This document shows positions 2,746 to 54,231 of a DNA stretch of 64,000 bases, one piece after another (positions within the stretch are counted from its first letter, which is position 1; each line of letters begins with the position of its first letter). A model generated the notes under the pieces. It searched no databases. It was not told where the DNA came from and worked only from the letters and a program-made list of their open reading frames with translations. The stretch comes from Myxococcota bacterium (lineage in GTDB: Bacteria; Myxococcota_A; Polyangia; JAAYKL01): contig JASJCT010000035.1 of the NCBI GenBank assembly GCA_030065855.1, positions 1-64,000 on the forward strand. Direction: 5' to 3'. The translations under genes were made by a program, and so were the position numbers.

Positions 2746-2777
2746 GGGTCACTTCGACACAGGTCCCGGATTGCCAC
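2746..2777. promoter_or_regulatory. 32-bp tandem-palindrome element, site A (hsp20 / catalase)
   Basis: Half-sites in order: GGGTC, 5 bases, GACAC, AG, GTCCC, 5 bases, GCCAC. It lies between the divergent hsp20 and catalase promoters, 68 and 70 bases from their -24 elements. The last 22 bases are identical to those of site B near SOD/kaiC. Size, dyad symmetry and position fit an enhancer (UAS) for an NtrC-type activator (inference). Confidence 0.8.
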
Positions 2778-2846
2778 GCGCCCAAGTAGCTGTTCCGGCG
2801 CCGGCATCTCACCTCACACTGCCATCGTCTTCTCTCTCTTTAGACT

Positions 2847-2862
2847 CGGTACAGATGTTGCT
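2847..2862 (+). promoter_or_regulatory. Sigma-54-like promoter of catalase
   Basis: CGGTACAGATGTTGCT. GG and GC are separated by exactly 10 bases, and the -12 block TTGCT is consensus. The -24 block is weaker (CGGTAC). Predicted start near 2873, about 60 bases before the catalase ATG. It is 70 bases downstream of site A. Confidence 0.65.
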
Positions 2863-2931
2863 TCGATGCTTCGCTTGCGTGGTTCAAGAGAAGACCGAAA
2901 TTTCTACAAACAAAAGAAAGGAAGAAATGTG

Positions 2932-4389
2932 ATGACAAAAAAACTTACGAACAGTGTCGGCGCACCTGTCGCAGACAACCAGAACGTGATGACCGCCGGC
3001 CCGCGGGGACCCATGCTCCTCCAGGACGTCTGGTTCCTGGAAAAGTTGGCTCATTTCGATCGCGAGGTGATCCCGGAGCGACGCATGCATGCCAAGGGCT
3101 CCGGGGCCTACGGAACTTTCAAGGTTACCCACGACATTACAAATTACACCAAGGCCAAAATATTCTCCCGGGTCGGTAAGAAGACCGACCTCTTCGTTCG
3201 CTTTTCCACGGTGGCCGGTGAGCGCGGCGCGGCCGATGCCGAGCGCGACATCCGCGGCTTCGCGATCAAGTTCTACACCGAGGCTGGCAACTGGGATTTC
3301 GTGGGCAACAACACGCCGGTGTTCTTCCTTAAGGATCCACTCAAGTTCCCGGACCTCAACCACGCCGTAAAGCGGGATCCCAAGACCAATCTCAGGAGTG
3401 CCGGGAACAACTGGGACTTTTGGACCTCGCTACCCGAGGCACTGCACCAGGTGACCATCACCATGAGCGATCGCGGCATCCCGTCCACCTATCGCCACAT
3501 GAACGGTTACGGCAGCCACACCTTCAGTCTGATCAATGGGCGAAGTGAGCGGTTCTGGGTCAAGTTCCATCTGAAGACCCAGCAGGGAATCAAGAACCTC
3601 ACCGACCACGAGGCGGAGGCGATCATCGGCAAGGACCGGGAGAGCCACCAGCGGGATTTGTTCGACAGCATCGAGAAGGGCGATTTTCCCAAATGGAATA
3701 TGCAGATCCAGGTCGTTCCCGAGAAGGCGGCCAATGACTTTCCGTTCAACCCCTTCGATCTGACAAAGGTCTGGCCGCACAAGAACTACCCGCTCATCGA
3801 CGTCGGGGTGCTCGAGCTCAACCGGAATCCCGAAAACTACTTCGCCGAGGTCGAGCAGGCGGCTTTTAACCCGGCCAACATCGTGCCTGGCATCGGTTTT
3901 TCCCCGGATAAGATGCTGCAAGGCAGGCTCTTTTCCTACGGCGATGCCCAGCGATATCGTTTGGGTGTCAATCACCATCTCATCCCGGTAAACCGCGCGC
4001 GCTGTCCGGTCACCGGGTTCCATCGGGACGGTGCCATGCGGGTAGACGACAACTACGGCGGGACCCTCGGGTACGAGCCCAACAGCTACGGCAAATGGCA
4101 GGAACAACCCGACTTTCGAGAGCCTCCCCTCGCCCTCGACAGCGCGGCCGATCATTTCAGTCATCGCGAAGACGACGATGACTACTACTCTCAGCCCCGC
4201 GCGCTATTCCAGATGATGAGCGCTGAGCAGAAGAAGGTCCTGTTCGAGAACACCGCCAGGGCCATGGGCGAGGCGCCTAAGGCGGTCAAGATGCGCCACG
4301 TCAGCAACTGCATGAAGGCCGATCCAGCTTACGGCGAGGGTGTCGCGGCCGCCCTTGGCATACCCGCACGCGAAGTGCCGAAAGGATGA
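2932..4389 (+). CDS. katA: Monofunctional haem catalase (clade 3 type)
   Basis: Decomposes hydrogen peroxide to water and oxygen. The protein has 485 aa when started at the ATG at 2932, which has AAGGAAG 7 bases upstream and gives the usual small-subunit catalase N-terminus ([18 protein letters not shown]). The frame is open upstream to 2611, but that part is non-homologous and covers the promoter. Catalytic His53 lies in [14 protein letters not shown], distal Asn126 in [12 protein letters not shown] and the proximal haem ligand Tyr336 in [15 protein letters not shown]. There is no signal peptide, so the enzyme is cytoplasmic. It is divergent from the hsp20 operon and convergent with the SOD gene. 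A sigma-54-like promoter at 2847 and the shared element at 2746 suggest enhancer-dependent control, not OxyR control. Confidence 0.95.
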
Positions 4390-4415
4390 CCCTGCCACCG
4401 ATTCCCGCTAACTTT

Positions 4416-5156
4416 TCAGGCCTTCCTCTTCCCAAGAGCGATTGCCAAGTTTTGGGCAGCAAAGTTCCAGTCGGCTAGATGATCGAAGAACACCTCGATG
4501 TACTTCTGGCGCAGGTTCTTGTACGTGGGGTAGTAGGCGTGTTCCCAAACATCGCAGGTTAGAAGCGCTGTGGCGCCGTGCTTCATCGGCAGATCAGCGT
4601 TCGAGGTCTTGGTAATCGAAAGCTTTCCGTCCTTCACGACAAGCCAGCCCCAACCCGAGCCGAACTGGGACACCGAAGCGCTGACGAACGCTTCTTTAAA
4701 CTTGGCAAAGGATCCAAAGTCGCGATCGATAGCCATTGCCAGCTCTCCGCCGGGCGCGCCGCCCCCACCCGGTTTCATGCAGCGCCAGTAGAAGGTATGG
4801 TTCCAGATCTGCGCGGCGTTGTTGAAAACCGGTCCCTCGGGTGCGGCCATGATGATCTGCTCGAGGGGCTTGTCCCTTTCAACCTTTCCCTCTGCTATTA
4901 AATTATTCAAGTTGACAACGTAGGCGTTGTGATGCTTGCCGTGATGCAGCTCGATATTTTCTCTGGAGAGGTGGGGCTCCAGGGCCGACGCATCGTATGG
5001 CAGGGGTGGAAGCGTGACTGACATTTCCTTTTTCTCCTTTCCCTTGGGCTGCGAAGGCGCAGGATCCGGACCGGTTCCTTTGCAGGCCGTAAACCCAGTT
5101 GCCAGCCCGGTTGCGCCTACGCTGGTAACAATGAGAAAGGCTCTTCGGTCCATCAT
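4416..5156 (-). CDS. sodB: Superoxide dismutase (Fe/Mn family), exported lipoprotein form with an internal start
   Basis: Dismutates superoxide to hydrogen peroxide, which catalase next door would remove. The full 246-aa form begins MMDRRAFLIV, a twin-arginine-like signal, followed by a hydrophobic stretch and Cys25 (FTAC, an imperfect lipobox), then a Pro/Lys-rich linker. From Met45 the sequence is a complete canonical cytosolic SOD (MSVTLPPLPYDASALEPHLS). Metal ligands are visible in ELHHGKHHNAYV, WNHTFYW and DVWEHAYY. FNNAAQIWNHTFYW with its Gln is typical of Fe enzymes. A good SD sits before Met45, so two products from one gene are plausible. The gene is convergent with catalase and divergent from kaiC. 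Confidence 0.93.
   Translation of the reverse strand: MMDRRAFLIVTSVGATGLATGFTACKGTGPDPAPSQPKGKEKKEMSVTLPPLPYDASALEPHLSRENIELHHGKHHNAYVVNLNNLIAEGKVERDKPLEQIIMAAPEGPVFNNAAQIWNHTFYWRCMKPGGGGAPGGELAMAIDRDFGSFAKFKEAFVSASVSQFGSGWGWLVVKDGKLSITKTSNADLPMKHGATALLTCDVWEHAYYPTYKNLRQKYIEVFFDHLADWNFAAQNLAIALGKRKA
5022..5037 (-). promoter_or_regulatory. Internal ribosome binding site and ATG inside the SOD gene
   Basis: On the minus strand GGAG (5037-5034) is followed after 9 bases by ATG (5024-5022), in frame with the SOD. Translation from here gives a 202-aa SOD without the signal sequence. The linker codons for Lys-Gly-Lys-Glu-Lys-Lys-Glu happen to encode this site, so it could also be chance from a Lys/Glu-rich stretch. 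Confidence 0.5.
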
Positions 5157-5209
5157 CTGCTCCTTTTTTTCGCAAGATGGTTTTCTTTATTTTGCCGCTG
5201 ACTCGAGAA

Positions 5210-5225
5210 TACAATTAACGTGCCA
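5210..5225 (-). promoter_or_regulatory. Sigma-54 promoter of the SOD gene
   Basis: Minus strand reads TGGCACGTTAATTGTA, differing from the hsp20 operon promoter at a single base. Predicted start near 5199, leader about 43 bases. The GG is 82 bases from the 32-bp element at 5307-5338. Confidence 0.8.
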
Positions 5226-5306
5226 TTTCTACTTTCTCAAGCAGTAAATAGAGGGAGAGCTAAAATGACCGCGACGACCTCGTGGCAAAGGCTTTCTCAG
5301 AAGCCC

Positions 5307-5338
5307 GTGTCTGAAAGACACAGGTCCCGGATTGCCAC
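5307..5338. promoter_or_regulatory. 32-bp tandem-palindrome element, site B (SOD / kaiC)
   Basis: Half-sites in order: GTGTC, 5 bases, GACAC, AG, GTCCC, 5 bases, GCCAC. The first palindrome is perfect. It lies in the divergent region between SOD and kaiC, 82 bases upstream of the SOD -24 element. I found no convincing -24/-12 element facing kaiC at the spacings used elsewhere. Confidence 0.8.
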
Positions 5339-11763: not shown

Positions 11764-12066
11764 CTATTTCCTGGATTTCGGCTGCTCCGTCCGGCTTGGG
11801 GGACTGAACGTTTTCGACATCATCTCCAGCCCGTTTTCGAGTGATTCCACGTACATTCGGCGCGCTTGGTCAGCGGTCTTTTGCCATTCGTGGTAGGCGT
11901 TTTGCGTTTCTTTCTGGAGTTGGCCCGCGGCTGTCATTGCGAAATCCACGGCTTTGTTCGTCTGCTCCTGCACGAGCTCCAGGTTTCTAACGCTGGTTTC
12001 GATAGAAAACCGAGCCATATCCAGGGCGCTTTTCGTCCATTTTTCCAGATCAATGTGTCCGATCAT
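11764..12066 (-). CDS. Phasin-like granule-associated protein
   Basis: A 100-aa all-helical protein (ALDMARFSIETSVRNLELVQEQTNKAVDFAMTAAGQLQKETQNAYHEWQ) matching the phasin pattern of an amphipathic helix with F, A and E/Q-T repeats that coats polyhydroxyalkanoate granules. The C-terminal Ser/Pro/Lys tail is disordered. AAAGGAG lies 8 bases before the ATG. It resembles the second phasin at 24136-24414 in the pha operon. It is the first gene of a leftward operon with the glycosyltransferase and is preceded by a near-perfect -24/-12 promoter and by element site at 12214. Confidence 0.75.
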   Translation of the reverse strand: MIGHIDLEKWTKSALDMARFSIETSVRNLELVQEQTNKAVDFAMTAAGQLQKETQNAYHEWQKTADQARRMYVESLENGLEMMSKTFSPPSRTEQPKSRK

Positions 12067-12119: not shown

Positions 12120-12135
12120 TACAACAATCGTGCCA
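12120..12135 (-). promoter_or_regulatory. Sigma-54 promoter of the phasin-glycosyltransferase operon
   Basis: Minus strand reads TGGCACGATTGTTGTA, again with a perfect TGGCACG block and TTGTA at -12. Predicted start near 12109, leader about 43 bases. The GG lies 79 bases from the 32-bp element at 12214. Confidence 0.8.
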
Positions 12136-12213
12136 ATCAGGAACAGCGAATCACGAAGCGCTATAACCAGACGCGTCTTGGTCGGTAGGAGGAAAATCAG
12201 AGGCGGACGCGGC

Positions 12214-12245
12214 GTGTCGAATCGCCACGCGTGGCAATGGGCCTC
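12214..12245. promoter_or_regulatory. 32-bp tandem-palindrome element (phasin operon)
   Basis: Half-sites in order: GTGTC, 5 bases, GCCAC, GC, GTGGC, 5 bases, GCCTC. It is upstream of the phasin promoter and 62 bases from the stop of the NtrC-type regulator gene. The central GCCAC-GC-GTGGC is itself a perfect 12-bp palindrome. Confidence 0.8.
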
Positions 12246-12306: not shown

Positions 12307-13674
12307 TCACTCCGACTTCCGCCCCTCCAATCGCGCCAACTTGCGGTACAGGCTCTTGCGGTCCACTCCCAGTATGCGCGCGGCCTGGGCCTTGTTTCCG
12401 CCCACAAGGCCCAACACTTGTTGGATGTACCGGCGCTCGAGCTCTGTCAGGGTAACGAGCTCGTTGGGATTGTCGTCACTGACGATCGCATGCGCAGCCT
12501 TGTAGTCGCGGATCCTCTCGGGGAGGTCGTCCACCGTCAGCTTGTCTGTGCCGGTAAGAGCCATGGCCCTCTCGATGCTGTTCTTCAGCTCGCGCACATT
12601 CCCTGGCCACGAGTATCCGAGCAGCTTCTCGGCCGCGGTCGTGCTCAATCCGCTCACGTCCCGTTGCATCTGAGATGCGAACTGATCGATAAAATGATCG
12701 GCGAGCAGCAGGATATCCCGGCCCCGCTGTCTTAAGGGCGGCATATCGATGTGCACAACGTTGAGCCGGTAGAAAAGATCTTCTCGGAATCCCTTGTCTT
12801 CCACCACTTGAGCCAAATCCCGATTCGTCGCAGAGATGACCCGTACATCGAAAGGCGTTTCAGTATTTCCCCCCACCGGCCTGACCGTGCGTTCTTCGAG
12901 GGTGCGCAGAATCTTTGCCTGCAAACCGAGGGGCATATCGCCGATTTCGTCGAGAAATAAAGTGCCTTTGTTTGCCTTGCCGAATAGGCCTATTCGAGTG
13001 GATTTCGCATCAGTAAACGCACCTTTCACATGTCCGAAAAGCTCGCTCTCGAGCAGGTTTTCCGGCAGGGCCGAGCAGTTGACGGCCACGAAAGGGCCGC
13101 CTTGTCTCTTGCTTCGTTTGTGCAGAGCGCGGGCCACGAGCTCCTTGCCGGTGCCGCTCTCACCGGTGATTAGCACGGTGACCTCGGTCTCAGCGGCCTT
13201 GGAAACGAGGGAGAAGACTTTATTCATCGGAGCGCTTTCGCCTTGGAACTCCTCGAACCCTTGGGACGCCTCCACGGTTCGACGCAAAAGCGTGACCTCC
13301 TTGTGCAGATGCCTGTGGTGAATCGCGCGATTCAAGGTGATGTGGAGTAGCTCGATATCGATCGGCTTGGTGATGAAATCGTAGGCACCGGCCCGCATGG
13401 CGGCGATCGCCGTCTCCAGGCTGCCGTAGGAAGTGATCACGATCACGGGCGTGTCTGGGCGGTTTTGATGGATCATCTCGGTTAGCTCTATTCCGTTCAT
13501 CTCGGGCATATTGAGGTCGGTCACAACAGCATCGAACTCCTCGTTCGACACAGCTTCAAGGGCCGCCGCCGCGTCGTACCGTAAACAAACCTGAAATCTT
13601 CGTTTTTCGAGTTGCGTGCCTGTCAGCTCGCAGAGTTCCTTGTCGTCATCCACGATGAGTACTTTTTTGGTCAT
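12307..13674 (-). CDS. NtrC-family sigma-54-dependent response regulator
   Basis: A 455-aa protein when started at the ATG at 13674 (MTKKVLIVDDD); a TTG at 13692 would add six residues. Receiver domain 1-115 with phospho-acceptor Asp53 (VVTDLNMPEMNG) and Lys103. AAA+ domain about 143-370 with Walker A GESGTGKE (171-178) and Walker B GTLFLDEIGDM. The sigma-54-contacting loop reads GAFTDA (218-223) in place of GAFTGA and keeps the essential Thr. A Fis-type helix-turn-helix at the C-terminus (NKAQAARILGVDRKSLYRKL) would bind a palindromic enhancer. It follows a kinase gene on the same strand and is the only sigma-54 activator in the window, so it is the best candidate to bind the 32-bp elements (inference). 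Confidence 0.94.
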   Translation of the reverse strand: MTKKVLIVDDDKELCELTGTQLEKRRFQVCLRYDAAAALEAVSNEEFDAVVTDLNMPEMNGIELTEMIHQNRPDTPVIVITSYGSLETAIAAMRAGAYDFITKPIDIELLHITLNRAIHHRHLHKEVTLLRRTVEASQGFEEFQGESAPMNKVFSLVSKAAETEVTVLITGESGTGKELVARALHKRSKRQGGPFVAVNCSALPENLLESELFGHVKGAFTDAKSTRIGLFGKANKGTLFLDEIGDMPLGLQAKILRTLEERTVRPVGGNTETPFDVRVISATNRDLAQVVEDKGFREDLFYRLNVVHIDMPPLRQRGRDILLLADHFIDQFASQMQRDVSGLSTTAAEKLLGYSWPGNVRELKNSIERAMALTGTDKLTVDDLPERIRDYKAAHAIVSDDNPNELVTLTELERRYIQQVLGLVGGNKAQAARILGVDRKSLYRKLARLEGRKSE

Positions 13675-13866: not shown

Positions 13867-14976
13867 TCAGGTCGGTAAGGGGGGGCTTCGACATGGTTCT
13901 GGCTCTCTTGCCATTGGAAGATAGACGAGGAACGTCGCGCCACGCCCCTCTTCTGATGCGACCTCGACGTAACCGCCGTGGTCGGTGACTACTGAATAGA
14001 CGATGGCAAGCCCCAGTCCACTACCCGTCGATTTTGTCGTGAAATAGGGCTCGAACACCTGGGGCAGGATGTTTTGGGGGATCCCGGGTCCCGTATCTCT
14101 AAACGATATCTTGACATACTTTCCAGGATGAAGGGGAAGGTCGCTCTCTTCGTCTACACGAGTGCTTTCACCTTCGATAAAGAGCGCGCCTCCCGTGTCG
14201 GACATCGCCTGTGCCGCGTTCAGCACCAAGTTGTTGACCACTCGCCCGAACTGCGTGTTACTGAGCTCCACTTTTTCGAGATTGTTTGAAAACGAAAGCT
14301 CAAGTTGCAATCCACGACCGCGCAGGGCAAACTTTGCGTTCTCCTCAACCAACTTGGCTATATCTGTCTTTTCTTTGACCAGTGCGCCATGTCTTGAAAA
14401 CGTAAACAACTGTTCGGCCAGCTCGCCGGCTTTGGAGATGCCATGGGATGCTGCCTTGAGGTGATCGGCGTTCTTGGGGGAGATGCCTGGGTCTTTGGCC
14501 GCGAGTTCAACAGCCCCGATGATGGACATCAGGTAGTTTTTAAAGTCATGGGCTATCCCGCCCGCAAGAGCGCGCATGGCGTCGAATTGAGCTGCTCTAC
14601 TCCGATGCTCGTGTTCGATTCCGCGCATGCGATCGCGCTCTAGCCTCAATGACTGCGCGATACCCCTGTAATTGACGACCCCATAAAATACCTCATCCCG
14701 AAACACGGGAAGGAATCGATGGGAGCCTTGTTCCATAAGTGCGAGCACATCTTCCAAGGTTTGCGAATCCACAACCCGCGGCCTGTCGGAAAGGCAGTCC
14801 ACGACCAGTAGATGGGGATTTTTTATCATGTCCTCTACTGTGAGTATGCCGATATAATCTTCATTGTTTTTGACTACAAGGAAACCGTCTTGGAGGAGTC
14901 TGCACTCTATAGAGACGACACTGTCATGTGGTGCGATTGTCCCGTAAGTGGTCAACGCGACCTTTCCCGCTGTCAT
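13867..14976 (-). CDS. CBS-domain sensor histidine kinase
   Basis: A 369-aa soluble protein. Residues 1-115 are a pair of CBS motifs (DGFLVVKNNEDYIGILTVEDMI and HRFLPVFRDEVFYGVVNYRGI), which in other proteins bind adenine nucleotides and so could sense energy charge. The HisKA domain has His143 in LAGGIAHDFKNYL, an NtrB-like H-box. The HATPase_c domain has N box NNLVLNAAQAM, G1 DTGPGIP and G2 GSGLGLAI. It overlaps the upstream small gene by 4 bases and precedes the NtrC-type regulator by 192 bases on the same strand. The NtrB-like H-box and the proximity make it the probable partner of that regulator. Confidence 0.9.
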   Translation of the reverse strand: MTAGKVALTTYGTIAPHDSVVSIECRLLQDGFLVVKNNEDYIGILTVEDMIKNPHLLVVDCLSDRPRVVDSQTLEDVLALMEQGSHRFLPVFRDEVFYGVVNYRGIAQSLRLERDRMRGIEHEHRSRAAQFDAMRALAGGIAHDFKNYLMSIIGAVELAAKDPGISPKNADHLKAASHGISKAGELAEQLFTFSRHGALVKEKTDIAKLVEENAKFALRGRGLQLELSFSNNLEKVELSNTQFGRVVNNLVLNAAQAMSDTGGALFIEGESTRVDEESDLPLHPGKYVKISFRDTGPGIPQNILPQVFEPYFTTKSTGSGLGLAIVYSVVTDHGGYVEVASEEGRGATFLVYLPMAREPEPCRSPPLPT

Positions 14977-17126: not shown

Positions 17127-17879
17127 TCACTCCACGCCGACCGAAATCGGCCTCTTTTTTTCCGCCAGGTGTTTGAGCAATCGGCGTCCCAAACCTATGG
17201 AAACGGTTTTGCGCGCTGCATGGGAAAGAAGTCTTCCCATGTCGCTCTTTCGCAGAGCGTTGACGCGGGCTTTTTTTAGAGCGGCCTGAGGAATTTCAAA
17301 CTCAACTTCCATTACGCCGTTGATTGGCTGCGCAAACCAGAAATCAGAACTTACCTCACTTAAGACGCTCTTCATCCGGTCGTTATCCGCGAGGATCTCA
17401 CAGCGAAAACGCTTTATCCCCCTTTCCAGGGCTGCTCCGGACAGGCGATGAAGGAGCAGCGTGCCCAGCCCTTTGCCCTGAAAGTCGTCCACAACGGCGA
17501 TCGCCGGCTCGGCCACTTCCGGCTCTCCCTTGACGCGAATGAACCGCGCAACGCCCAGACCGTCCTCGTTTCCATCTTCTCTCTTCATTACCGCACCAAT
17601 GGCGACATGGTCGATGCCGTCGATCTCGGTCAACCGGCGAAGCTCCTCATCAGAAAGGCGCAGCTTGGATGCAAAAAATCTGAAGTAGCGAGATTCAGGG
17701 GAGAGGCGTTCGAACCCCCGGCGCAACAGATCCTTATCCGAGGGGCAAACCGTTCTCAACGAGACGGACGTCCCGTCGTCGAGAAAAACTTCCTCAAGGT
17801 AAGAGCCTGTAAACCAGAGTTCTGAACTTGCCACGTTGGTCCTTTCAATTTCAGCCGATTCAGTTCGAAATATTCCCAT
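17127..17879 (-). CDS. GNAT-family N-acetyltransferase
   Basis: A 250-aa protein with an acetyl-CoA-binding GNAT core at about 40-175: VSLRTVCPSDKDLLRRGFERLSPESRYFRFF, HVAIGAVMK, then AIAVVDDFQGKGLGTLLLHRLSGAALERGI, where Q-G-K-G-L-G is the acetyl-CoA pyrophosphate loop. The opening resembles the C-terminal GNAT of the ADP-forming ligase at 41960-44632 (LSPESRYFRFF against RPEDRRLRFFSR). The C-terminal 60 residues are basic. The ATG at 17879 lies only about 4 bases after the predicted sigma-54 start. A GTG at 17834 with AAAGGA 5 bases upstream is an alternative start. Substrate unknown; protein lysine acetylation is possible. Confidence 0.82.
   Translation of the reverse strand: MGIFRTESAEIERTNVASSELWFTGSYLEEVFLDDGTSVSLRTVCPSDKDLLRRGFERLSPESRYFRFFASKLRLSDEELRRLTEIDGIDHVAIGAVMKREDGNEDGLGVARFIRVKGEPEVAEPAIAVVDDFQGKGLGTLLLHRLSGAALERGIKRFRCEILADNDRMKSVLSEVSSDFWFAQPINGVMEVEFEIPQAALKKARVNALRKSDMGRLLSHAARKTVSIGLGRRLLKHLAEKKRPISVGVE
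17136..17161 (+). terminator. Rho-independent terminator of pyk inside the convergent GNAT gene
   Basis: GCCGA (17136-17140) and TCGGC (17147-17151) form a 5-bp stem with a 6-base loop, followed by CTC and seven T. It begins 24 bases after the pyk stop and lies in the last codons of the convergent GNAT gene, where it encodes part of the Lys/Arg-rich tail. Confidence 0.7.
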
Positions 17880-17893: not shown

Positions 17894-17909
17894 TGCAAAT
17901 ATTGAGCCA
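17894..17909 (-). promoter_or_regulatory. Sigma-54-like promoter of the GNAT gene
   Basis: Minus strand reads TGGCTCAATATTTGCA: TGGC at -24, TTGCA at -12, GG-N10-GC. Predicted start near 17883, so the ATG at 17879 would be almost leaderless. The GG is 72 bases from the 32-bp element at 17981. Confidence 0.7.
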
Positions 17910-17980
17910 TTTTCAAGCAGGCACTAACTTTTCGTCCAAGATTCAGGCATTAAAATATGATGGCAATCTCAGCCTGCCCT

Positions 17981-18012
17981 GTGGCAAATCGACACAGGTG
18001 GCAGATAGCCAC
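17981..18012. promoter_or_regulatory. 32-bp tandem-palindrome element, site C (GNAT)
   Basis: Half-sites in order: GTGGC, 5 bases, GACAC, AG, GTGGC, 5 bases, GCCAC. The second palindrome is perfect. It stands between the GNAT promoter and the ompA-like remnant, the same neighbourhood as site D at 27251. Confidence 0.8.
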
Positions 18013-24862: not shown

Positions 24863-24871
24863 TTTATTTAC

Positions 24872-26071: not shown

Positions 26072-26078
26072 TTTTACC

Positions 26079-30792: not shown

Positions 30793-30882
30793 CTATCCCA
30801 GAAGGACAAGCTCGTCAAAGGCATTACTGCGTTGGAGCTAGTACGACTCAGTCAAATTATAATTTTAGAATAGAATCCGATA

Positions 30883-30898
30883 TGGCACTGCGATTGCA
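30883..30898 (+). promoter_or_regulatory. Sigma-54 promoter of the V-ATPase operon
   Basis: TGGCACTGCGATTGCA matches the sigma-54 consensus TGGCAC-N5-TTGCA exactly. Predicted start near 30909, about 100 bases before the first small gene. No 32-bp element lies within 68-101 bases upstream, where the terminator sits. The closest is site E, 654 bases away. Confidence 0.85.
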
Positions 30899-32663: not shown

Positions 32664-32664
32664 G

Positions 32665-36223: not shown

Positions 36224-36224
36224 G

Positions 36225-44683: not shown

Positions 44684-47434
44684 TTATTTCTGCCGCGAGC
44701 GCTTTAAAAAAGCGCGGCTTATCTGTTTTTCCGTTTCCACTACGACTAAAAATAGAGCTGCCAGCAGGCCGATACGGCCCCACGCATTCGATGGCATGGG
44801 CACTGTGTGGAACATTGCATTCATTGCGGGCAAGTAGGTGAAGGCGAGCTGTAACAAAGACATGCCGCAGGCTCCAATCCAGATCCACGGATTAGTGAAT
44901 ACGCCGATAGAGAAAAGCGAACGGTCAAGGGATCGACAGCTCAAAAGATATAAAATATCAGCGACGACGATGAAGCCTGCGGTGGCGGTCTGTGCTTGTT
45001 CCATGGCCGCGCCGCGCCCGAGCTCCCATTGGAAGACTGCAAATGCTTCCACACAAATAAGCGCCGCGACGAATACAATGCGAAAGGCGAGCGCTCCCGG
45101 GAGCAACGGGCCTTTTGGATCTCGAGGAGGCCTTTGCATAATCCCTTTTTCCCTGGGCTCGAAAGCAAGCATGGTGCCGAGGGCGACTACCGTGGTCATG
45201 TTGATCCACAGGGCCTGTGCCGGGAGAATAGGGAGCCCGGTGCCGAGCACGATCGCCGCGAGCAACACGAGGCCCTGACCGATGTTCGTAGGCAGGGTCC
45301 AGACGATGAACTTAATTAGATTGTCAAAGATGCTCCGGCCCTCGGCCACGGCTGCTTCAATGGTGGCGAAGTTGTCGTCGGTGAGCACCATGGCCGCCGC
45401 GTCCCGGGCCACCTCTGTGCCTCCGAGTGCCATAGCCACGCCAATATCTGCTCTGCGCAGGGCCGGCGCGTCATTGACCCCATCGCCGGTCATGGCTACC
45501 ACGTGCCCTTTGGATTGCAGTGCCTCGACGAGCCTGAGCTTGCTCTCCGGGGTGACCCGGGCAAATAGGTTTGAATTTCCGGCGACCTCGGCGAGATTCT
45601 GGGTCTCCATCTGCTCCAGCTCAGCACCGGTATGGACCCTGGAGATCGACTCGCTGCAGGGGCCGGGCTTTTCCACGATTCCGACCTCGGATGCAATGGC
45701 CAGGGCGGTTGTCGCGTGATCCCCGGTGATCATCTTGACTTGAATGCCGGCGCGCTTGCAGCTTGCCACAGCCTGCGCTGCCTCTTCCCGCGGTGGATCG
45801 ATCATTGCCTGCAATCCGAGAAAGGTGCACCCTTCCTCGATATCGGAGTGCGCGATCGATCCGGATTTTTCGGACAGATCTTTTTTGGCGAACGCCAGCA
45901 CGCGCAACCCCTCGCAGGCGAGCCTCTCTGCACCTGATAAAAGATTCTGACGATGCAAGGGAAGACTTTCTCCCCCCGGCCCAAGCGCATCACCGCATCT
46001 GGCAATAACGCTCTCTACCGCGCCTTTGAGATACGCTGTGTCGCGACCGTCAACTTCTGCTTTGTGAAGAGTGGCCATGTACTGATAGTCGGATTCGAAT
46101 GGAATGGCATCGATGCGCGGCAGCTCTGTTTTAAGCGCGCGGAGGTCCAAGCCGCCCTTTGTCGCCGAGACGAGTAGCGCGCCTTCGGTTGGGTCCCCCT
46201 CGATCTTCCAGTGGGATCCATCTGAGCTTAGAATTGCATCGTTGCACAGGGCGCCGCATCTAATCGTCTCGCTCAGTGCCTCATTGTCGCCGGCCGGGTG
46301 GTCTTCTTCCAGGGATCTGATTTCGCCTCTGGGTTCATATCCCTGGCCGCGGACCTCGTATGCCATACCGGCCGTCGCGATGTGCCGCACCGTCATCTGG
46401 TTGTGGGTCAATGTTCCGGTCTTGTCCGTACAGATGACCGTTGTGCTGCCCAGGGTCTCAACTGCCGGGAGTCGCCTGATGATCGCCCGGCGCCTTGCCA
46501 TGCGCGCAACGCCGATGGCCAGCATGATCGTTACCGCCGCAGGTAGACCCTCTGGAATGGCGCCCACAGCCAGAGCCACTGCAGCCAGGAAGGTCTGGAG
46601 CAGCGGCTGATCCCGCAGCAAGCCGATGCCGAAGGTCAGGGCGGCCAGGACCAGGATAACCACGAGCAGCACGTTGCTGAATCGCTCAATCCTGCGGGTC
46701 AGAGGGGTCTTCAGGTCAGGAGATGCGGAGATCAGCGAAGCAATGCGCCCGATCTCACTGTCATCGCCGATGGCCGTGACCACGCCTTTTCCGGTGCCGT
46801 ACGTAACCAGCGCGGACGAATAGGCCATGTTCTTGCGGTCGGCAAGAACCGTATCAGCCGGCAGCACCGCGGCATCCTTTTGCACCGGTACGGATTCCCC
46901 GGTCAGGGCTGATTCGTCAACGCGCAGGTTTCGCGTATGGAAAAGCCTGAGGTCAGCCGGCACTTTGTCCCCGGATTGGAGCAGTACGATGTCCCCTGGC
47001 ACGAGATCCTCGGCCGGAATGTCGCTCTGCTCCCCCTGGCGAATAATGGTCGCCGTGCGCGTGAGCACGCGCGAGAGCGCGTCGATGGCAGTAAGCGCCT
47101 TGGACTCCTGCACAAAACCCACGATAGCGTTTACCAACACCACACCGAGAATCACGCCTGCGTCGACCCATTCACTGAGGACCGCCGTCACAATGCCTGC
47201 CGCGAGAAGGATGTAGACCAACGGCGCATGGAACTGTAGAAGGAATCGGATAATCGGCCCTCGACCTTTCTTGGGAGTGAGCCTGTTGGGTCCGAATTCG
47301 AGCCTGCGCCCTGTGACCTCCGCCGCGTCAAGCCCCTCTGCCGGATCGGTATCGAGAAGCGTCGCCACTTCCTCAAAGGGCACTTGGTGGGCTGCCACGA
47401 AACGCTTTTCCTGCACAATCGACCCCTGTATCAT
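44684..47434 (-). CDS. P-type cation ATPase (P2A, SERCA/PMR1-like)
   Basis: 916 aa. Actuator domain with DESALTGESVPV, phosphorylation Asp337 in CTDKTGTLTHNQ, nucleotide-binding KGAVESVI and GDGVNDAPALRRADIGVAM hinge, and about ten transmembrane helices. Transmembrane segment 4 carries GAIPEGLPAAVTIML, the cation-binding P-E-G-L of Ca2+ and related pumps. The N-terminal cation_ATPase_N domain is present. Ca2+, Mn2+ or Na+ export; specificity cannot be read. It overlaps the tamB stop by 4 bases and lies 51 bases before the ligase gene. Confidence 0.93.
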   Translation of the reverse strand: MIQGSIVQEKRFVAAHQVPFEEVATLLDTDPAEGLDAAEVTGRRLEFGPNRLTPKKGRGPIIRFLLQFHAPLVYILLAAGIVTAVLSEWVDAGVILGVVLVNAIVGFVQESKALTAIDALSRVLTRTATIIRQGEQSDIPAEDLVPGDIVLLQSGDKVPADLRLFHTRNLRVDESALTGESVPVQKDAAVLPADTVLADRKNMAYSSALVTYGTGKGVVTAIGDDSEIGRIASLISASPDLKTPLTRRIERFSNVLLVVILVLAALTFGIGLLRDQPLLQTFLAAVALAVGAIPEGLPAAVTIMLAIGVARMARRRAIIRRLPAVETLGSTTVICTDKTGTLTHNQMTVRHIATAGMAYEVRGQGYEPRGEIRSLEEDHPAGDNEALSETIRCGALCNDAILSSDGSHWKIEGDPTEGALLVSATKGGLDLRALKTELPRIDAIPFESDYQYMATLHKAEVDGRDTAYLKGAVESVIARCGDALGPGGESLPLHRQNLLSGAERLACEGLRVLAFAKKDLSEKSGSIAHSDIEEGCTFLGLQAMIDPPREEAAQAVASCKRAGIQVKMITGDHATTALAIASEVGIVEKPGPCSESISRVHTGAELEQMETQNLAEVAGNSNLFARVTPESKLRLVEALQSKGHVVAMTGDGVNDAPALRRADIGVAMALGGTEVARDAAAMVLTDDNFATIEAAVAEGRSIFDNLIKFIVWTLPTNIGQGLVLLAAIVLGTGLPILPAQALWINMTTVVALGTMLAFEPREKGIMQRPPRDPKGPLLPGALAFRIVFVAALICVEAFAVFQWELGRGAAMEQAQTATAGFIVVADILYLLSCRSLDRSLFSIGVFTNPWIWIGACGMSLLQLAFTYLPAMNAMFHTVPMPSNAWGRIGLLAALFLVVVETEKQISRAFLKRSRQK

Positions 47435-50400
47435 TGTTCTGTATCCTCTTCAGAAACCCCGTCAGCATCGCGGTCTCGACTGGGTGCGTCGAATCGCTTG
47501 CGCCAATAGATGCCGACTTCTCCTTTTTGCGCGTCGCCGTAGGCGCTCTCGACAGACCAGCTCGGGCTCAACCGGTATTCCACGCGCGCGCCGGTGGTGT
47601 TTTCGTCCGGCGGCGCGTTGTGGTGATATTCGGTCTCCACGTAGAGTCGTTTTCCCAGTCGCTTTCCCACGACGACAATCGGCTCTTCCACGGACCGGCC
47701 GAGTTTTACGTCTACCTTATCCAGCCCCAAGCGCGAATAGAGCTGCCGTTCCAAAGTCGGATTTTGAAACGCCAGGAGCAAGGACGCGGCTTTTGTCTGA
47801 ACATCCTCGTCTCCCTGCTCTGCAGTGTCTGATTTTCCAGTGACGAGGAGAGAGACGATCTCATACTGGCTCATGGCCGGATCCGACGTGAGCATGAGCT
47901 CCGGTCGGCTCGCCCTACCGCGCACAGTCACGGTTACCTGGGCCTCGGGCGTCATTGCGCCGGCGACGATATGGACAAACGGATCGAGCTCTCCCGAAAC
48001 AGGCAGTGTGATCTCTCCGGATTCGATTTCAAAGGTGTTGCCGAGAAATTGAAACCGGCCTGGAAATGCGCGAATTTTGCCTTTGATGTCGTTTGTTCCT
48101 GCTGCAGAAACCACGAGCAGCTTACCGGCCCAGCGCATCTCTACCCCGCGACCTCGTATCTCGGTCGGGTCGGTCATGTCCACGGTGAGATGCAATTGGT
48201 GCGCTGTCTCGGGCAACAAGGCCTTACCGCGCTGTTTCTTTTGTTTCGCTTGTACATCCCGCGGATCGACGAATACCAAGCTGTCGGATGCCTGTATGCC
48301 CCTTGGCACGCGCGATCCTGTGGTCTGGAGCAACCTGAGGTTCGTATCTCGAAACGCGACCGCAACATCTGTTCTCTCGGGGGCATGTTCAAACCGCACC
48401 TGCATGTTCGAATCAATCAACCCTTCTGGAATGCCGGGCTTCACAAAGGGAAAGCGATCGAGGTCGATCTCTCCCTGGCCTTGCACACGCCCATCTCCGA
48501 GATAGATCGCCTCCAGGGCCCCTGTTCCCTGTCCCTTGCCGCTCGAGAACGTAAGCTCGCTAATCCGTGCGCGCACGCCGTCCAATGCCACGGTAACTCC
48601 CACCTGTTGCAACCGCTGGTTGAGCTCGGCAATGGTCACTGCTCCCTGTTCGAGCGCGATCCAGCCCTGTATCGACGGACGGGCGATGGTGCCGTCCGCG
48701 ATGACCTGTCCTTTGACAGTTCCTTCAGCTTTATAAAACGCGGTGGGCAGGAGCCGGGAAAAGGGCGCGATATCCAGGCCGGGAATATCGATACGCGCGC
48801 TCAGCGGTGTTTTAGCTACGTTAAACCCCTCTGCTAAAACGTCGCCCCTGGTCAGCCCTGCCCGACCCTGAGCCAGCAGCAAGGGATTGGTTTTGGGTCC
48901 GACCGATATATGGACGGATTGGTCTTCGTGGCTCGCCCTGAGCGCGCCCCTTACTGGCAAGTGGACAAATCCCCGTTGTCGCAGCTCTCCATCCAAGGTC
49001 CCGTTTAGTAGGAACCTTTCAACAGACCCCGATCCTTTGATGCTCCCGTTGATCCGGAAATCGAGCCCGGCCGGTAGATCTATAAACGGCGCAGCCAGGG
49101 CACCATCGATACCTGCCACGAGGATCGCTATTTCGTGCACTCCTTTCGGTCGCCAGTGCGCGGTAAATCTTTCCAGGTCCATCGGTAGGGGAAAAGACCC
49201 CTTGAGGTCTACATAACGTCCGGCCCTCTGGGTTATCTGGGCGTGCAGATCAGCTGATCCGCCCCGCGACTGGAAACCGATCGCGCCTACGCCGATGTCT
49301 CGATCTCCCCAGCCGAGCTTTTTCAACGCAGCGTAGACGTCCAATTCAGGAGACGCCGGCGCCCCCCTCAGCTGCACCTGAATATCTGCCTGGCCCTTCA
49401 GATGGAGCACCGGCACTGCCGTGTTTGGCATTGCAGCAGACAGGGCATCTGCCAGCGCTTTGAAATCAAGGCCGGCGATGTCCATGTCGATTTCGTGAGG
49501 CTGGCCGGCCATCCAGGTTATCCCTTTAGTGACATCGATGTGAATCGGAAGTGATCCGCGAGCGTTTATACCGCTCGCAACGCCGCCTTTGATGTCGAGC
49601 TGAACGCCAGCCAATTGCTTGGCAAAGGAGACATCCGCCGTTGCTGTGTCGATGGCGATGCCGCGCCAGGCCAGCTCCCTCGCCCTGATGGATGATGAGA
49701 TGCTGGGGCCATGAGGCGAGCCGTTTATGTGGACGTTCGCATCTGTCAACCCGGATATCTCAGCCTCTGGAAACCAGGCAGATATCGCATCGAGCCTCAG
49801 GTCTTTTGCTTCCAGGGATAATCGGAGCGGTCGATTGTTGTTGAGATGTGCCCGGCCGTTCTCCAGGTCCAGACGCACGCCCACCCTGACCTTGGCGTTC
49901 ATAAAGCGGGCCGGGCCATCCGCAGCTGTCAGCTCTGCATCCAAGACGTCGCCGCTATAATCCGCCTTGAACGCCGCGGTGCCGAGATGCACGTCTTTAT
50001 ATTTTAGACGGTCGAGTTCGGTCCTTACGGTGCCGGTAAGGGCGCTGCGCGATCCAGCCAGGCGGACCTGGGTATGGACCGTACCTTCGAGCCCGAGCCA
50101 GGGAAAGATCGCGGTTACATGGCCCAGATCCAGCTGATCGGCTGTGAGATGAAGATCGCTCTGTCCCTCTTTGACAACGCGTGCCGTTGCCCGCAAAAAA
50201 CCGCCGGCCACGCGTATCGACAGCTGGTCCACATGGAACCCGCGCTCATCCGCTTGTATCGTTACCGGTCCAAGGAGGCGGGCAACCAGGGTGCGACGAC
50301 GCGCGACGAGCTGTTCAATATCCAGTCGAAACGGTTGCCCAGGACTGAACGCAAGGCGCGTTTTCAAGCGATGTCCCTGGCCGAGCCGGGCGCTGCCGGT

Positions 50401-51987
50401 CATCTCTATGCGTTCTGAGGTTCCCTGAAAGCCGACCGCAATGCCGGTGATCTTTTGTCCGGAGAGATGCACGCCTCTACCACGAACGGTTCCTGAAAAG
50501 GGCCGGGATGCTGCCAATGGCGCTGCTTTGAAATCGAGGCGTACGGAACGGGCAGTGGACCACGGGCTCTTCAGACGGGACGCGAGAATCTTTCCTGCGC
50601 ACCGAAGATCTCCTTCAGCGCTGCGCTCGCACTGGCCAGCCCCATTGAGGCGGCCTTTGAGAAGCGGCAACGGGGCAACCTCGGCCAAGGCCGTGCTCGG
50701 CCTTGAAAGATCGTCGCTCGCGACGTGCCATGAGAAATCTCTGGGCACCCAGTCCTCAAAGGCGGCCTTGGTTTGCAGAGACAGGCCGGCCGCATCGAGA
50801 GAGACGCGCGCCTGGCCCGCGCCTGCTTCGAAATGGACCGTCAGCCCTCCGTCGACGCTGCCCACCGGCCAGATCACACATTTGTCGCATTGAAAGGAGC
50901 CGTCGATAGTTGCCGTCGCAAAGGCGCTTCCCTTTGCTCGTACCTCGCCTCGACCGGTGATCGCACCGGGCAGCGTTTGTGCGCCAACGCTGGGATCCAG
51001 GTTGGAAAGCTGGATGGCTGCGTTGAGGTCGATCCCCTGGGTAACGCTGCCTTGAATCATCGCAGTGAGATCGCTTTTGTCTTTAAGCGAGATCGACGCG
51101 GTTGCGCGAAAGTCCTCGAGATCGCCCGTGAGCGAGATATCGATGTGAGGGTCGACAGGCAGCTCGATGTTGTGGGCGCGCGTGATAAATGCTCGATCCA
51201 AGCGGGCATTGATACGCGCTTTTCCCTGAACCTGGGATAGGTCGACCGTCACGTCGTGTGCGAAAATATCACCGCGATTGGAACGCAGCGCCAGCTTTTC
51301 CAAACGCACGGTCGGCTCCTGCCAGGTTGCATTCAACGCCAGTGCAGTGACATCGAGGTCCAGCTCCGGCAATCGTCCGGATACATGCCTGGCCCTCAGC
51401 TCGGCGCGTCGACCTTTTGCCGTCAGTTTGCCGACAACCCTCGCATTGCTCACTAAATCCTTGGTGCTATCGGCGCCTGAGGCGATGAGCGAGAAACCGT
51501 CAATGCTGAATGCCACATCTATCTGAAGGGGTAGATCCGGACCCAGCCCGGGCCCTGGCGCGTCACTTGCTGCAGCCTCCGGTACGATATCCGCATAGGG
51601 ATTTTTCTCGGCATTGTCGGCAAGGCAGACCTCCACACCTCTCAATGAAAGCGCTTGAACATCGAGTTTTCCCGAGAGCAGAGCGAGTGGATCCCAGCGC
51701 AGCGAAATCCGATCGATGCCCACCAAGCGCTTGCCGGTCCCATCCTTGAGAGATGCACCGCCGAGCTCAAACCGATCGCCGAGGCTTCCCCGGATCGACG
51801 CGACGTTCACGCTGCCTGCGATGGTGTCGTTGTACCAGATAAGCGCGCGATCCAGCACCAGCCGGGTGCCTGTTTCTGTAAACAAGACCGCCACAAGCGC
51901 CGCGATTGGCACCAGAAAGAGAGCGACAGTGCAACCCCAGACCAGTCCCAGGCGCTTTCTCAACTTCTTTGAACGCCGCCCGCTCAA
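47431..51987 (-). CDS. tamB: Translocation and assembly module protein TamB (DUF490)
   Basis: About 1,518 aa. The best start is the TTG at 51987, which overlaps the tamA stop and has GGGGGAA upstream; longer readings run into tamA. A single N-terminal transmembrane helix (VWGCTVALFLVPIAALVAVLF) anchors it in the inner membrane. The body is repetitive beta-strand, as in TamB/AsmA lipid-transfer bridges, and the C-terminal DUF490 region has KIRAFPGRFQFLGNTFEIESGEI and KLGRSVEEPIVVVGKRLGKRLYVE, ending in a barrel-like part. It spans the periplasm with TamA to assemble outer-membrane proteins or transport phospholipids. Very large gene, no frameshift. Confidence 0.9.
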   Translation of the reverse strand: MSGRRSKKLRKRLGLVWGCTVALFLVPIAALVAVLFTETGTRLVLDRALIWYNDTIAGSVNVASIRGSLGDRFELGGASLKDGTGKRLVGIDRISLRWDPLALLSGKLDVQALSLRGVEVCLADNAEKNPYADIVPEAAASDAPGPGLGPDLPLQIDVAFSIDGFSLIASGADSTKDLVSNARVVGKLTAKGRRAELRARHVSGRLPELDLDVTALALNATWQEPTVRLEKLALRSNRGDIFAHDVTVDLSQVQGKARINARLDRAFITRAHNIELPVDPHIDISLTGDLEDFRATASISLKDKSDLTAMIQGSVTQGIDLNAAIQLSNLDPSVGAQTLPGAITGRGEVRAKGSAFATATIDGSFQCDKCVIWPVGSVDGGLTVHFEAGAGQARVSLDAAGLSLQTKAAFEDWVPRDFSWHVASDDLSRPSTALAEVAPLPLLKGRLNGAGQCERSAEGDLRCAGKILASRLKSPWSTARSVRLDFKAAPLAASRPFSGTVRGRGVHLSGQKITGIAVGFQGTSERIEMTGSARLGQGHRLKTRLAFSPGQPFRLDIEQLVARRRTLVARLLGPVTIQADERGFHVDQLSIRVAGGFLRATARVVKEGQSDLHLTADQLDLGHVTAIFPWLGLEGTVHTQVRLAGSRSALTGTVRTELDRLKYKDVHLGTAAFKADYSGDVLDAELTAADGPARFMNAKVRVGVRLDLENGRAHLNNNRPLRLSLEAKDLRLDAISAWFPEAEISGLTDANVHINGSPHGPSISSSIRARELAWRGIAIDTATADVSFAKQLAGVQLDIKGGVASGINARGSLPIHIDVTKGITWMAGQPHEIDMDIAGLDFKALADALSAAMPNTAVPVLHLKGQADIQVQLRGAPASPELDVYAALKKLGWGDRDIGVGAIGFQSRGGSADLHAQITQRAGRYVDLKGSFPLPMDLERFTAHWRPKGVHEIAILVAGIDGALAAPFIDLPAGLDFRINGSIKGSGSVERFLLNGTLDGELRQRGFVHLPVRGALRASHEDQSVHISVGPKTNPLLLAQGRAGLTRGDVLAEGFNVAKTPLSARIDIPGLDIAPFSRLLPTAFYKAEGTVKGQVIADGTIARPSIQGWIALEQGAVTIAELNQRLQQVGVTVALDGVRARISELTFSSGKGQGTGALEAIYLGDGRVQGQGEIDLDRFPFVKPGIPEGLIDSNMQVRFEHAPERTDVAVAFRDTNLRLLQTTGSRVPRGIQASDSLVFVDPRDVQAKQKKQRGKALLPETAHQLHLTVDMTDPTEIRGRGVEMRWAGKLLVVSAAGTNDIKGKIRAFPGRFQFLGNTFEIESGEITLPVSGELDPFVHIVAGAMTPEAQVTVTVRGRASRPELMLTSDPAMSQYEIVSLLVTGKSDTAEQGDEDVQTKAASLLLAFQNPTLERQLYSRLGLDKVDVKLGRSVEEPIVVVGKRLGKRLYVETEYHHNAPPDENTTGARVEYRLSPSWSVESAYGDAQKGEVGIYWRKRFDAPSRDRDADGVSEEDTEQ

Positions 51988-53939
51988 AATGCTTCCCCCA
52001 GTCCGATGTGGAACGCCCACCTGGCCTCTCCTCTGGACAGCGGTGTCTCGTTCAAGCGCGCGCCAACGTCCAGGCGAAACTTGCCGATCGGGCTGGCATA
52101 GCGCAGCCCGCCTCCGGCCGAGTAGTTCCACTCATCGGGTTGATACGATATCTCGTCCGGTTGAACATCTCCTGCATCGCCGAATGCCACGGCGTAGAGG
52201 TCGCCGAACGTCCGCACCCGCAGCTCGATATTGCCCAGGAACACCGTTTTTCCTCCGATCGGAATGCGGCGGCAATCCTCCGCCTCGCCCTCGTCCGGCG
52301 GACAGATTTCCGTTTTCGGCGCCAAACGCTTTAATCCCCAACCTCTCACTGAATCTGCGCCTCCCAGGTAATATTTCATGTCGAATGGGACCGCCGGCCG
52401 ATCTCCATAGGGCAGGATATAACCGGTCTCGATCCGAGCCGCTACCTGCACGCGCGTGCTGATTTGCCAGTACGCCCTGAGCTCGGGAGAGATCTTTTGA
52501 TAGTCGTAGTGTCCGCCAAAAGGACCCCCTGCAACGGCGTATCTCGCGCCCAATACGATGCCGTTTCTCGGCTCGAACAGCCTATCCGTAAAATAGGCCT
52601 TTGTTTCCAACGCCACATAGCTCAGAAAGTAAGGATCTCGAAAATCCAGCCCAAGCAGGCTGCGGTTCGTATCCAGTGTCTCGGATAGGTTGAAAAAATC
52701 GACGAATCGAAAATTATGGCTTACTTCGACCTGCAGGACCTGGGCAAAGAAACGGGATACGCCCAGCCGTGTGCTCGGCGAGTAGAACTGGTAGCCCTCG
52801 TCGATCCCCAGCTCAAAAGCGGGCGCTGCGGTCCAGACCAACTTCTTTTCCAAAAGCCCCTTCTTGGTCAGGCGTGGTTCCACTTTAAGCACGGGGCCGT
52901 GCTCTTTTACAGTGAACGGCGTGGGCAGCTCTGCATAGCCAATCCGAAGACGAACATCGAGGCGAGTGAGCTCGCCAAACAGGTTCCGGTGGGAGTATTG
53001 GCCGGTGATGCGTTCTTCCCACCGGGCCGGCTCGAACCCCAGGCCCACACCGACCTTGATCGACTGCAGCTTCGACTCGGTGACGACAACAGTGATGGGC
53101 ATTCGCCCTTGGGCGTCTATCTCGCGTCCAGGCACAACTTCGACAGCGCTGAACACATCCATGGCGTAGACGACCTGCTCAATGCTTTCGAGCAGCTGGG
53201 GCGAGAACGGCTCACCAGAGATGCCGTCCACTTCTCGCAATACCAACCGTTCCGGCACCCGGCGCAGACCGAGAAACCGCACCTCCCCGATCCAGGCGAA
53301 TTTTCCCGGCCTGATCTCTACGGTGACCTCTGCTGTTTTGGCGTCGCGATCCACGGTTGCCTTCACCGCTGCGGTTGCCAGGGCAAATCCGCGTTCCTTC
53401 AATATGCGCTCGATGCTCGCTTCAGTGCTTTCCATCATCGGCACTTCAAGCGGATCGCCGATGCTCAGTCGAGATGCCGTCTCGACGGTCTCCGCGGTAG
53501 GGCAGCTCGGCATGGGGCATTGGGGCGGACCGTCCGGCCAGACATACCTGATACGGGTCACCCTGACAGGCTCGCCTTCGTGTACGGAGATGACCAGATC
53601 CACTTTGTTCGAGCGCACCCTTTTGGGCGCCGCTCTGATCTCGACCACTTCCGCGTCGTAGTATCCATGTGAGTGATAGAGCGCGACGATGCGCTGGGCG
53701 TCCAGAGGCACGAGGGCCTCATTGAAGTAAAAGGTCTCAGTGAACGGAAGCCACGATGTCTCGCCTGCGAATGTGTATTCGAGCAGCTCGTCTTTTTCAA
53801 AGCGCGTCACTCCCTTGAGCTCGATGTCATCAATCTCGTACCGAGCCCCGGTTATCTCCTGCCGTTCCCGAGTGGTCGCGCAGCAAGCGATGAAAGCACA
53901 AAACAAAAGCGCTCCCCTTTGAGAAATAGAGTGGGTCAT
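51984..53939 (-). CDS. tamA: Omp85-family outer-membrane protein TamA
   Basis: 651 aa from the ATG at 53939; the frame is open upstream to 54299 but would cover the promoter. The N-terminus is ISQRGALLFCAFIACCATTR, so Cys19 or Cys20 could be lipidated (weak lipobox). POTRA domains follow (YEIDDIELKGVTRFEKDELL; GYYDAEVVEIRAAPKR; FAWIGEVRFLGLRRVPERLV), then the barrel from about residue 290, with DMKYYLGGADSVRGWGLKRLAP, the V-R-G-W/F motif of Omp85, and the GEVSHQP-like end GEARWAFHIGLGEAF. It heads a leftward gene train of eight genes. Confidence 0.92.
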   Translation of the reverse strand: MTHSISQRGALLFCAFIACCATTRERQEITGARYEIDDIELKGVTRFEKDELLEYTFAGETSWLPFTETFYFNEALVPLDAQRIVALYHSHGYYDAEVVEIRAAPKRVRSNKVDLVISVHEGEPVRVTRIRYVWPDGPPQCPMPSCPTAETVETASRLSIGDPLEVPMMESTEASIERILKERGFALATAAVKATVDRDAKTAEVTVEIRPGKFAWIGEVRFLGLRRVPERLVLREVDGISGEPFSPQLLESIEQVVYAMDVFSAVEVVPGREIDAQGRMPITVVVTESKLQSIKVGVGLGFEPARWEERITGQYSHRNLFGELTRLDVRLRIGYAELPTPFTVKEHGPVLKVEPRLTKKGLLEKKLVWTAAPAFELGIDEGYQFYSPSTRLGVSRFFAQVLQVEVSHNFRFVDFFNLSETLDTNRSLLGLDFRDPYFLSYVALETKAYFTDRLFEPRNGIVLGARYAVAGGPFGGHYDYQKISPELRAYWQISTRVQVAARIETGYILPYGDRPAVPFDMKYYLGGADSVRGWGLKRLAPKTEICPPDEGEAEDCRRIPIGGKTVFLGNIELRVRTFGDLYAVAFGDAGDVQPDEISYQPDEWNYSAGGGLRYASPIGKFRLDVGARLNETPLSRGEARWAFHIGLGEAF

Positions 53940-53967
53940 GTCCAAATATCTTCGCGAAGCCTGATAG

Positions 53968-53983
53968 AGCAAGGAGCATGCCA
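53968..53983 (-). promoter_or_regulatory. Sigma-54 promoter of tamA
   Basis: Minus strand reads TGGCATGCTCCTTGCT: TGGCA at -24, consensus TTGCT at -12, GG-N10-GC. Predicted start near 53956, leader about 17 bases. The GG lies 101 bases from the element at 54084. Confidence 0.75.
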
Positions 53984-54083
53984 TAAAGATTCGCTCGATA
54001 ACATTCAACTCCCTGCGTCCGGAGCGCAGTCGGTTGGCGATAGCAATGAATCCCGCACTCGCGTAGATACTATTCACTGGTGT

Positions 54084-54115
54084 GTGGCCATTAGACACAT
54101 GTGCCATTTGGCCAC
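54084..54115. promoter_or_regulatory. 32-bp tandem-palindrome element, site F (tamAB / SLC12-like)
   Basis: Half-sites in order: GTGGC, 5 bases, GACAC, AT, GTGCC, 5 bases, GCCAC. It lies midway between two divergent -24/-12 promoters, 101 bases from each GG. Confidence 0.8.
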
Positions 54116-54120
54116 TGTTC

Positions 54121-54144
54121 TTGGTATAGGTCTTGGTATAGGTC
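54121..54144 (+). repeat. Tandem duplication of a 12-bp sequence
   Basis: TTGGTATAGGTC is present twice in a row, between element site F and the promoter of the SLC12-like gene. Twelve bases is close to one helical turn, so copy number would alter enhancer spacing. Confidence 0.7.
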
Positions 54145-54215
54145 AGAGGAATGTCTCTTATCATTGAATATGTCCGCGAATAACTGATCTCTTTCGGCAA
54201 TAGCTGATTCTTTTC

Positions 54216-54231
54216 TGGCCAACAGATTGCA
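54216..54231 (+). promoter_or_regulatory. Sigma-54-like promoter of the SLC12-like gene
   Basis: TGGCCAACAGATTGCA has TGGC at -24, TTGCA at -12 and GG-N10-GC. Predicted start near 54242, about 69 bases before the ATG at 54311. The GG is 101 bases from site F. Confidence 0.7.

Follow-up and report, generated by a model that had tools for sequence, protein, structure and literature searches.

A tandem operator paired with sigma-54 promoters marks a predicted local stress, storage and envelope regulon in a Myxococcota genome

The window, that is, the whole 64,000-nucleotide stretch of DNA analysed here, carries genes for small heat shock proteins, catalase, superoxide dismutase, polyhydroxyalkanoate (PHA) metabolism, outer-membrane assembly and ion transport, together with an NtrC-type response regulator and a histidine kinase. 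Seven copies of a 32-bp tandem operator are found among these genes. The features are the following, with sigma-54 promoter scores given on a scale whose maximum is 20.3.

1240..2592, minus strand: three hsp20 genes, proposed target
2663..2679, minus strand: sigma-54 promoter TTGGCACGCTAATTGTA of the hsp20 operon, score 17.3
2746..2777: tandem operator 1, between the hsp20 operon (minus) and katA (plus), 3 mismatches
2846..2862, plus strand: weak sigma-54-like site, katA, score 11.5
2929..4389, plus strand: catalase (katA), probable target
4416..5156, minus strand: Fe/Mn superoxide dismutase (sodB), proposed target
5210..5226, minus strand: sigma-54 promoter of sodB, score 15.3
5307..5338: tandem operator 2, between sodB (minus) and kaiC (plus)
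11764..12066, minus strand: phasin-like ORF, 100 aa, proposed target
12120..12136, minus strand: sigma-54 promoter of the phasin-like gene, score 17.3
12214..12245: tandem operator 3, 61 bp after the regulator gene and upstream of the phasin-like gene
12307..13674, minus strand: NtrC-type response regulator (receiver, AAA+, Fis-type HTH), proposed activator
13867..14976, minus strand: histidine kinase with an N-terminal CBS domain, proposed partner of the regulator
17127..17879, minus strand: GNAT acetyltransferase, Pat-like, proposed target
17894..17910, minus strand: sigma-54 promoter of the GNAT gene, score 14.9
17981..18012: tandem operator 4, upstream of the GNAT gene, exact match
24443..27041, minus strand: phaE, phaC-like and MaoC-like genes, proposed target
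27139..27155, minus strand: sigma-54 promoter of the phaE operon, score 17.3
27251..27282: tandem operator 5, upstream of phaE-phaC-maoC
29047..29063, minus strand: sigma-54 promoter upstream of an ompA-like gene, score 13.1
30197..30228: tandem operator 6, between converging genes, exact match
30882..30898, plus strand: good sigma-54 promoter upstream of the V/A-type ATPase operon, score 15.2
47431..53939, minus strand: tamA and tamB, proposed target
53968..53984, minus strand: sigma-54 promoter of the tamA-tamB operon, score 15.9
54084..54115: tandem operator 7, between tamA (minus) and the SLC12-like gene (plus)
54215..54231, plus strand: weak sigma-54-like site, SLC12-like gene, score 10.9
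54311..56533, plus strand: SLC12-like K-Cl cotransporter, possible target

The operator follows the pattern GTGKC-N5-GMCAC-N2-GTGGC-N5-GMCAC, made up of two 15-bp dyads with a 17-bp period. In the window, this pattern gives 13 matches counting both strands (0.03 expected by chance; 0 of 100 shuffles). The seven elements listed in the initial annotation are thus present, all of them intergenic, and the constant geometry ascribed to them, with half-sites at 0, 10, 17 and 27, is found in every copy. Their common consensus stands as a pattern and a geometry but is matched exactly only by the operators at 17981 and 30197, the other five having 1–3 mismatches. With a matrix derived from the seven operators, the lowest true site scores 31.6 and the next-best window position 2.1; the matrix being trained on the same seven sites, it is the gap that is informative, not the scores. 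An Rfam search gave no match.

The search for sigma-54 promoters used a matrix based on the established consensus TGGCACG-N4-TTGCW, which PMC9765219 gives as well. Six of the seven operators have a minus-strand site scoring 14.9–17.3 out of 20.3 at 91–124 bp, centre to centre, a count reached in 0 of 20,000 random intergenic placements of seven sites. These distances fall in the range of roughly 80–150 bp expected for paired-dyad enhancers of NtrC-family activators. Start codons are plausibly placed downstream of these promoters. By eye, the GNAT gene may use an alternative in-frame GTG start near 17834 with a good ribosome site, and in tamA the in-frame ATG at 53939 is followed by a signal-peptide-like stretch. 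Six copies had been reported to carry promoters facing hsp20, katA, sodB, phasin, GNAT, phaE, tamA and SLC12-like genes. The promoters of hsp20, sodB, the phasin-like gene, GNAT, phaE and tamA are strong, but those of katA and SLC12 are weak, at a score level near background (24 window matches vs. 12 in shuffles); judged from the sequence, these two genes probably belong to the regulon all the same, and genes behind the listed target operons possibly do so too. The “phasin” gene keeps its place as a proposed target with a strong promoter and an operator; the ORF has no family match.

Operator 6 (30197) has no good sigma-54 promoter within 170 bp, and neither a hidden promoter nor a small gene was found there. 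The V/A-type ATPase promoter at 30882 lies 677 bp away. NtrC-class activators can act from such distances, and it is possible that operator 6 acts on this promoter. The V/A-type ATPase operon itself (31010–38721) lies within a bacterial stress cluster and has this good promoter of its own. No recognisable operator accompanies the ompA-like promoter at 29047, and two further sigma-54-like sites without operators lie within coding sequence, at 17176 (minus strand, 15.7) and 51555 (plus strand, 15.1).

The wider distribution was examined by pattern searches of the 7.08-Mb genome. The strict promoter pattern TGGCAY-N5-TTGYA has 21 matches, 5 of them on the source contig, which represents 0.9% of the genome; the control with one extra base in the spacer has 18 genome matches and none on that contig. 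The genome scan proposed in the initial annotation thus shows sigma-54 sites concentrated at this locus. With up to 3 mismatches allowed, the operator is found seven times in the window and otherwise on contigs C72, C51, C26 and C56. The three-mismatch matches on C26 and C56 are background, since the reversed-pattern control gives six matches genome-wide. On C72, one operator lies 68 bp after a regulator gene whose product is 63% identical to the window regulator, and on C51 two operators flank one that is 64% identical; the genome has no closer paralogs of the window regulator than these two. Scattering of the element, named beforehand as grounds for refutation, is therefore not what is seen: it is nearly confined to the source contig and the regulator paralogs. 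The regulon proposed earlier keeps its sigma-54 character but is local to the cluster rather than genome-wide. Contamination is an unlikely source of the contig, as its GC content is 0.55, against 0.53–0.56 for C51 and C72, and the in-genome paralogs (64%) are closer than the sampled homologs.

These paralogs raise the question of which protein occupies the enhancers. The three regulators have 61–64% identity and resemble one another in their recognition helices, and the operator on C72 comes close to the window type, so that the window sites might be bound mainly by the C72 or C51 paralog, or be shared by the whole set. However, seven copies surround the window regulator vs. one or two around each paralog, and the C51 operators differ in sequence from those of the window. 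We consider this reading unlikely and assign the operator to the regulator at 12307–13674, mainly because the pairing of operator and regulator gene recurs where operators occur.

This pairing extends to other genomes. The exact pattern, searched in about 85,000 species, occurs on 14 contigs, of which those of four fen Myxococcales and of the MAG SJ588 fit. In the fen Myxococcales MAGs (G105), a regulator of 55% identity is surrounded by four operators within 15 kb; three of these have promoters at 83–118 bp, and the neighbourhood comprises the regulator's kinase-regulator operon, OmpA-like genes, a ClC channel gene and a receiver gene. In SJ588, a perfect operator follows a 55% identical regulator at a distance of 102 bp and is itself followed by a candidate promoter, in the same order as in the window. 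The placement of operator 3 beside the regulator gene recurs beside homologous regulators. The nine other exact-pattern contigs have no sigma-54 site within 300 bp of the operator and are mostly taken as chance matches; one of them, from Tropicimonas, has a distant regulator-like match. Degenerate tandem operators with the same period also occur in G013 and G004, which belong to the window's family; they precede strong sigma-54 promoters scoring 16.6 and 19.6, and the gene behind is a lone receiver converging on the regulator. Across 19 clade loci, a tandem operator is found at enhancer distance upstream of 5 of 117 promoters and at the mirrored downstream distance of 0 of 117, a small test in which one operator, counted from either side, accounts for two of the five. 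Most clade regulators of other families have no clear tandem operator near their gene, and a search of 379 genomes of the phylum with up to 1 mismatch brought up just three others, roughly as many as the reversed control. When the half-sites were left arbitrary, a search for tandem operators gave too much noise in GC-rich loci. The assignment of the element to the regulator at 12307–13674, already suggested in the initial annotation, is firmer now that the operator has been found beside paralogs and beside homologs in other genomes.

Two associations were observed along the way. Lone receiver genes lie behind a tandem operator and a sigma-54 promoter at three loci (L061 8677–9108, L065 5156–5626, and L020 10577–11128), and such a gene is perhaps the ancestral target of the clade regulators. 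OmpA-family genes adjoin tandem operators in the fen Myxococcales MAGs (L020 9303–10484 and 13389–14144), which suggests a recurring OmpA-operator association.

Tandem palindromes by themselves do not name the binding protein, and both operator 6 and the C72 copy are devoid of a good sigma-54 promoter, the latter having none recognisable with our matrix. A repressor or a sigma-70-type activator could then be the protein that uses the element, with sigma-54 sites nearby by coincidence. We hold this to be very unlikely, as six of the seven operators have a promoter at a regular enhancer distance and the operator recurs beside NtrC-type genes in several genomes.

The copies are not all separate in origin. 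The flanks of the operators at 17981 and 27251 are homologous, the 3' end of an ompA gene having been duplicated there, and the operators at 2746 and 5307 have 22 identical bases in common within the site. Because of these two relationships, there are fewer than seven independent origins; the non-INDEPENDENCE of copies would leave about five, with promoters that have since diverged. Least probable of all is the reading as a dispersed repeat (a REP-like or mobile element) that landed between genes by chance: in spite of these two related pairs, no clear relationship is seen among the remaining flanks, the 7-Mb genome has no further copies of the repeat save those beside the paralogs, and degenerate sites by homologous regulators retain the geometry.

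The regulator at 12307–13674 combines PF00072, PF00158, and PF02954 in one protein. Compared with the PDB, it gives full-length matches to NtrC-family structures as well as a match to ZraR. Its domain order is that of AtoC/ZraR/GlrR-type regulators, but it is not an equivalog of any of these or of NtrC: NCBIfam scores are far under the curated cut-offs for AtoC, the best model (467 bits vs. 714), NtrC (423 vs. 559), ZraR (399 vs. 760), and GlrR (395 vs. 763). In the GAFTGA loop, which contacts sigma-54, the sequence is GAFTDA, a variant present in 31 of the 36 clade members. The Fis-type recognition region is nearly constant across the clade. The genome has one RpoN (E 5e-65).

The kinase gene at 13867–14976, upstream of the regulator gene on the same strand, encodes a single CBS-HisKA-HATPase protein. 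The CBS match covers residues 68–108 and, by eye, follows a CBS-like stretch; a HAMP domain was not detected. The CBS domain takes the place of a membrane sensor, and the kinase is apparently cytosolic; by analogy with the CBS family, it may sense adenylates. Among 318 genomes of the class, no full-length relative of this kinase was found, only kinase-core matches. The predicted structure was set aside (mean pLDDT 43).

Taken together, the element is likely a two-dimer enhancer through which the regulator at 12307–13674 drives a local sigma-54 regulon. From the operators, the promoters, their spacing, the rpoN gene and the clade-wide recurrence of operators beside regulator genes, all read in DNA sequence, we infer that the regulator binds these sites and activates transcription. 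The kinase, paired with the regulator in this model, would phosphorylate it, and the phosphorylated protein would bind the two adjacent dyads and form a hexamer. DNA looping over about 90–125 bp would then allow the sigma-54 polymerase to be opened at the promoters of hsp20, sodB, the phasin-like gene, GNAT, phaE, and tamA, and probably of katA and SLC12. The CBS domain may sense a fall in energy charge as the signal. Such a regulon would join, within a 64-kb cluster, protein protection, oxidant removal, carbon storage and envelope/ion functions. Points against this model include the GAFTDA loop, operator 6 without a nearby promoter, the C72 copy without a recognisable one, the weak katA and SLC12 promoters, and the duplicate copies. 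More tentatively, and with less than even confidence, we envisage a regulator clade with its own operator code beside the gene (two GNGGCA-type 15-bp dyads, 17-bp period), of which one member here, under a soluble, energy-reading CBS kinase, may have gathered a self-contained 64-kb sigma-54 survival island made up of chaperones, oxidant defence, PHA storage and envelope repair.

Catalase, superoxide dismutase and small heat shock proteins are usually under sigma-32, sigma-S, OxyR or ECF control. If the model is right, here they share a dedicated NtrC-type switch with PHA storage and outer-membrane assembly, and the stress cluster carries that switch itself. The model would also give a clade of myxobacterial regulators an operator that can be read; these regulators are uncharacterised and numerous, and most have no known targets.

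In mechanism this would be standard NtrC biology, known already in myxobacteria from stress or oxygen regulons (NmpR, Nla28). In NmpRSTU (PMC11841059), as predicted here, an NtrC-like regulator uses paired 15-bp dyads (5-5-5) that precede sigma-54 promoters; it controls its own locus along with genes of a stress type, and CBS-domain proteins are linked to the system. However, the NmpR site in Myxococcus xanthus is GCGCA-N5-TGCGC, with pairs usually 14–15 nt apart, whereas the dyads here read GTGKC-N5-GMCAC and lie 2 nt apart. NmpR controls oxidase, heme, hemerythrin, USP and pil genes that are dispersed over the genome and relate to oxygen utilisation, and its sensor is a heme-binding phosphorelay (NmpU heme kinase, NmpS hybrid kinase) (PMC11841059). 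The window does not match the NmpR regulon, as operator sequence and spacing differ and the regulator's locus carries a CBS-HisKA-HATPase kinase and no NmpU or NmpS. The Nla28 starvation regulon of M. xanthus (PMC9765219) also has an NtrC-like activator, tandem sites, sigma-54 promoters and some envelope and stress targets; its half-site is CT(C/G)CG(C/G)AG, with variable spacing and more than 100 genes genome-wide. In Burkholderia cenocepacia, the lxa locus (PMC6127331) is a similarly large contiguous cluster with a heat shock protein and the PHB-related phbB, but it has six USPs and suspected Anr/FixLJ-type oxygen control instead of sigma-54. Finally, predicted sigma-54 chaperone regulons of Planctomycetota and Bacteroidota also contain small heat shock proteins but belong to other phyla, and the main text mentions neither catalase nor superoxide (PMC12316311). 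The gene content had been called unusual, with no described counterpart known; no regulon with this content was found in the open-access literature. Neither the operator and its recurrence across the clade nor the sensor and the target set seem to have been described there so far.

Some neighbouring features deserve mention. A KaiC-KaiB-PAS histidine kinase operon (5516–8795) lies beside the stress genes, with the operator at 5307 between kaiC and sodB; no sigma-54 site faces this operon from that operator. Beside the operator at 17981, the segment 18071–18367 is a decayed 3'-end copy of an OmpA-family gene, the original of which is the intact gene at 27375–28931, beside the operator at 27251. 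On another contig (locus L056, 15457–15570), a 38-residue stretch is 95% identical to the window hsp20 at 61338–61751 and looks like a recent partial duplication.
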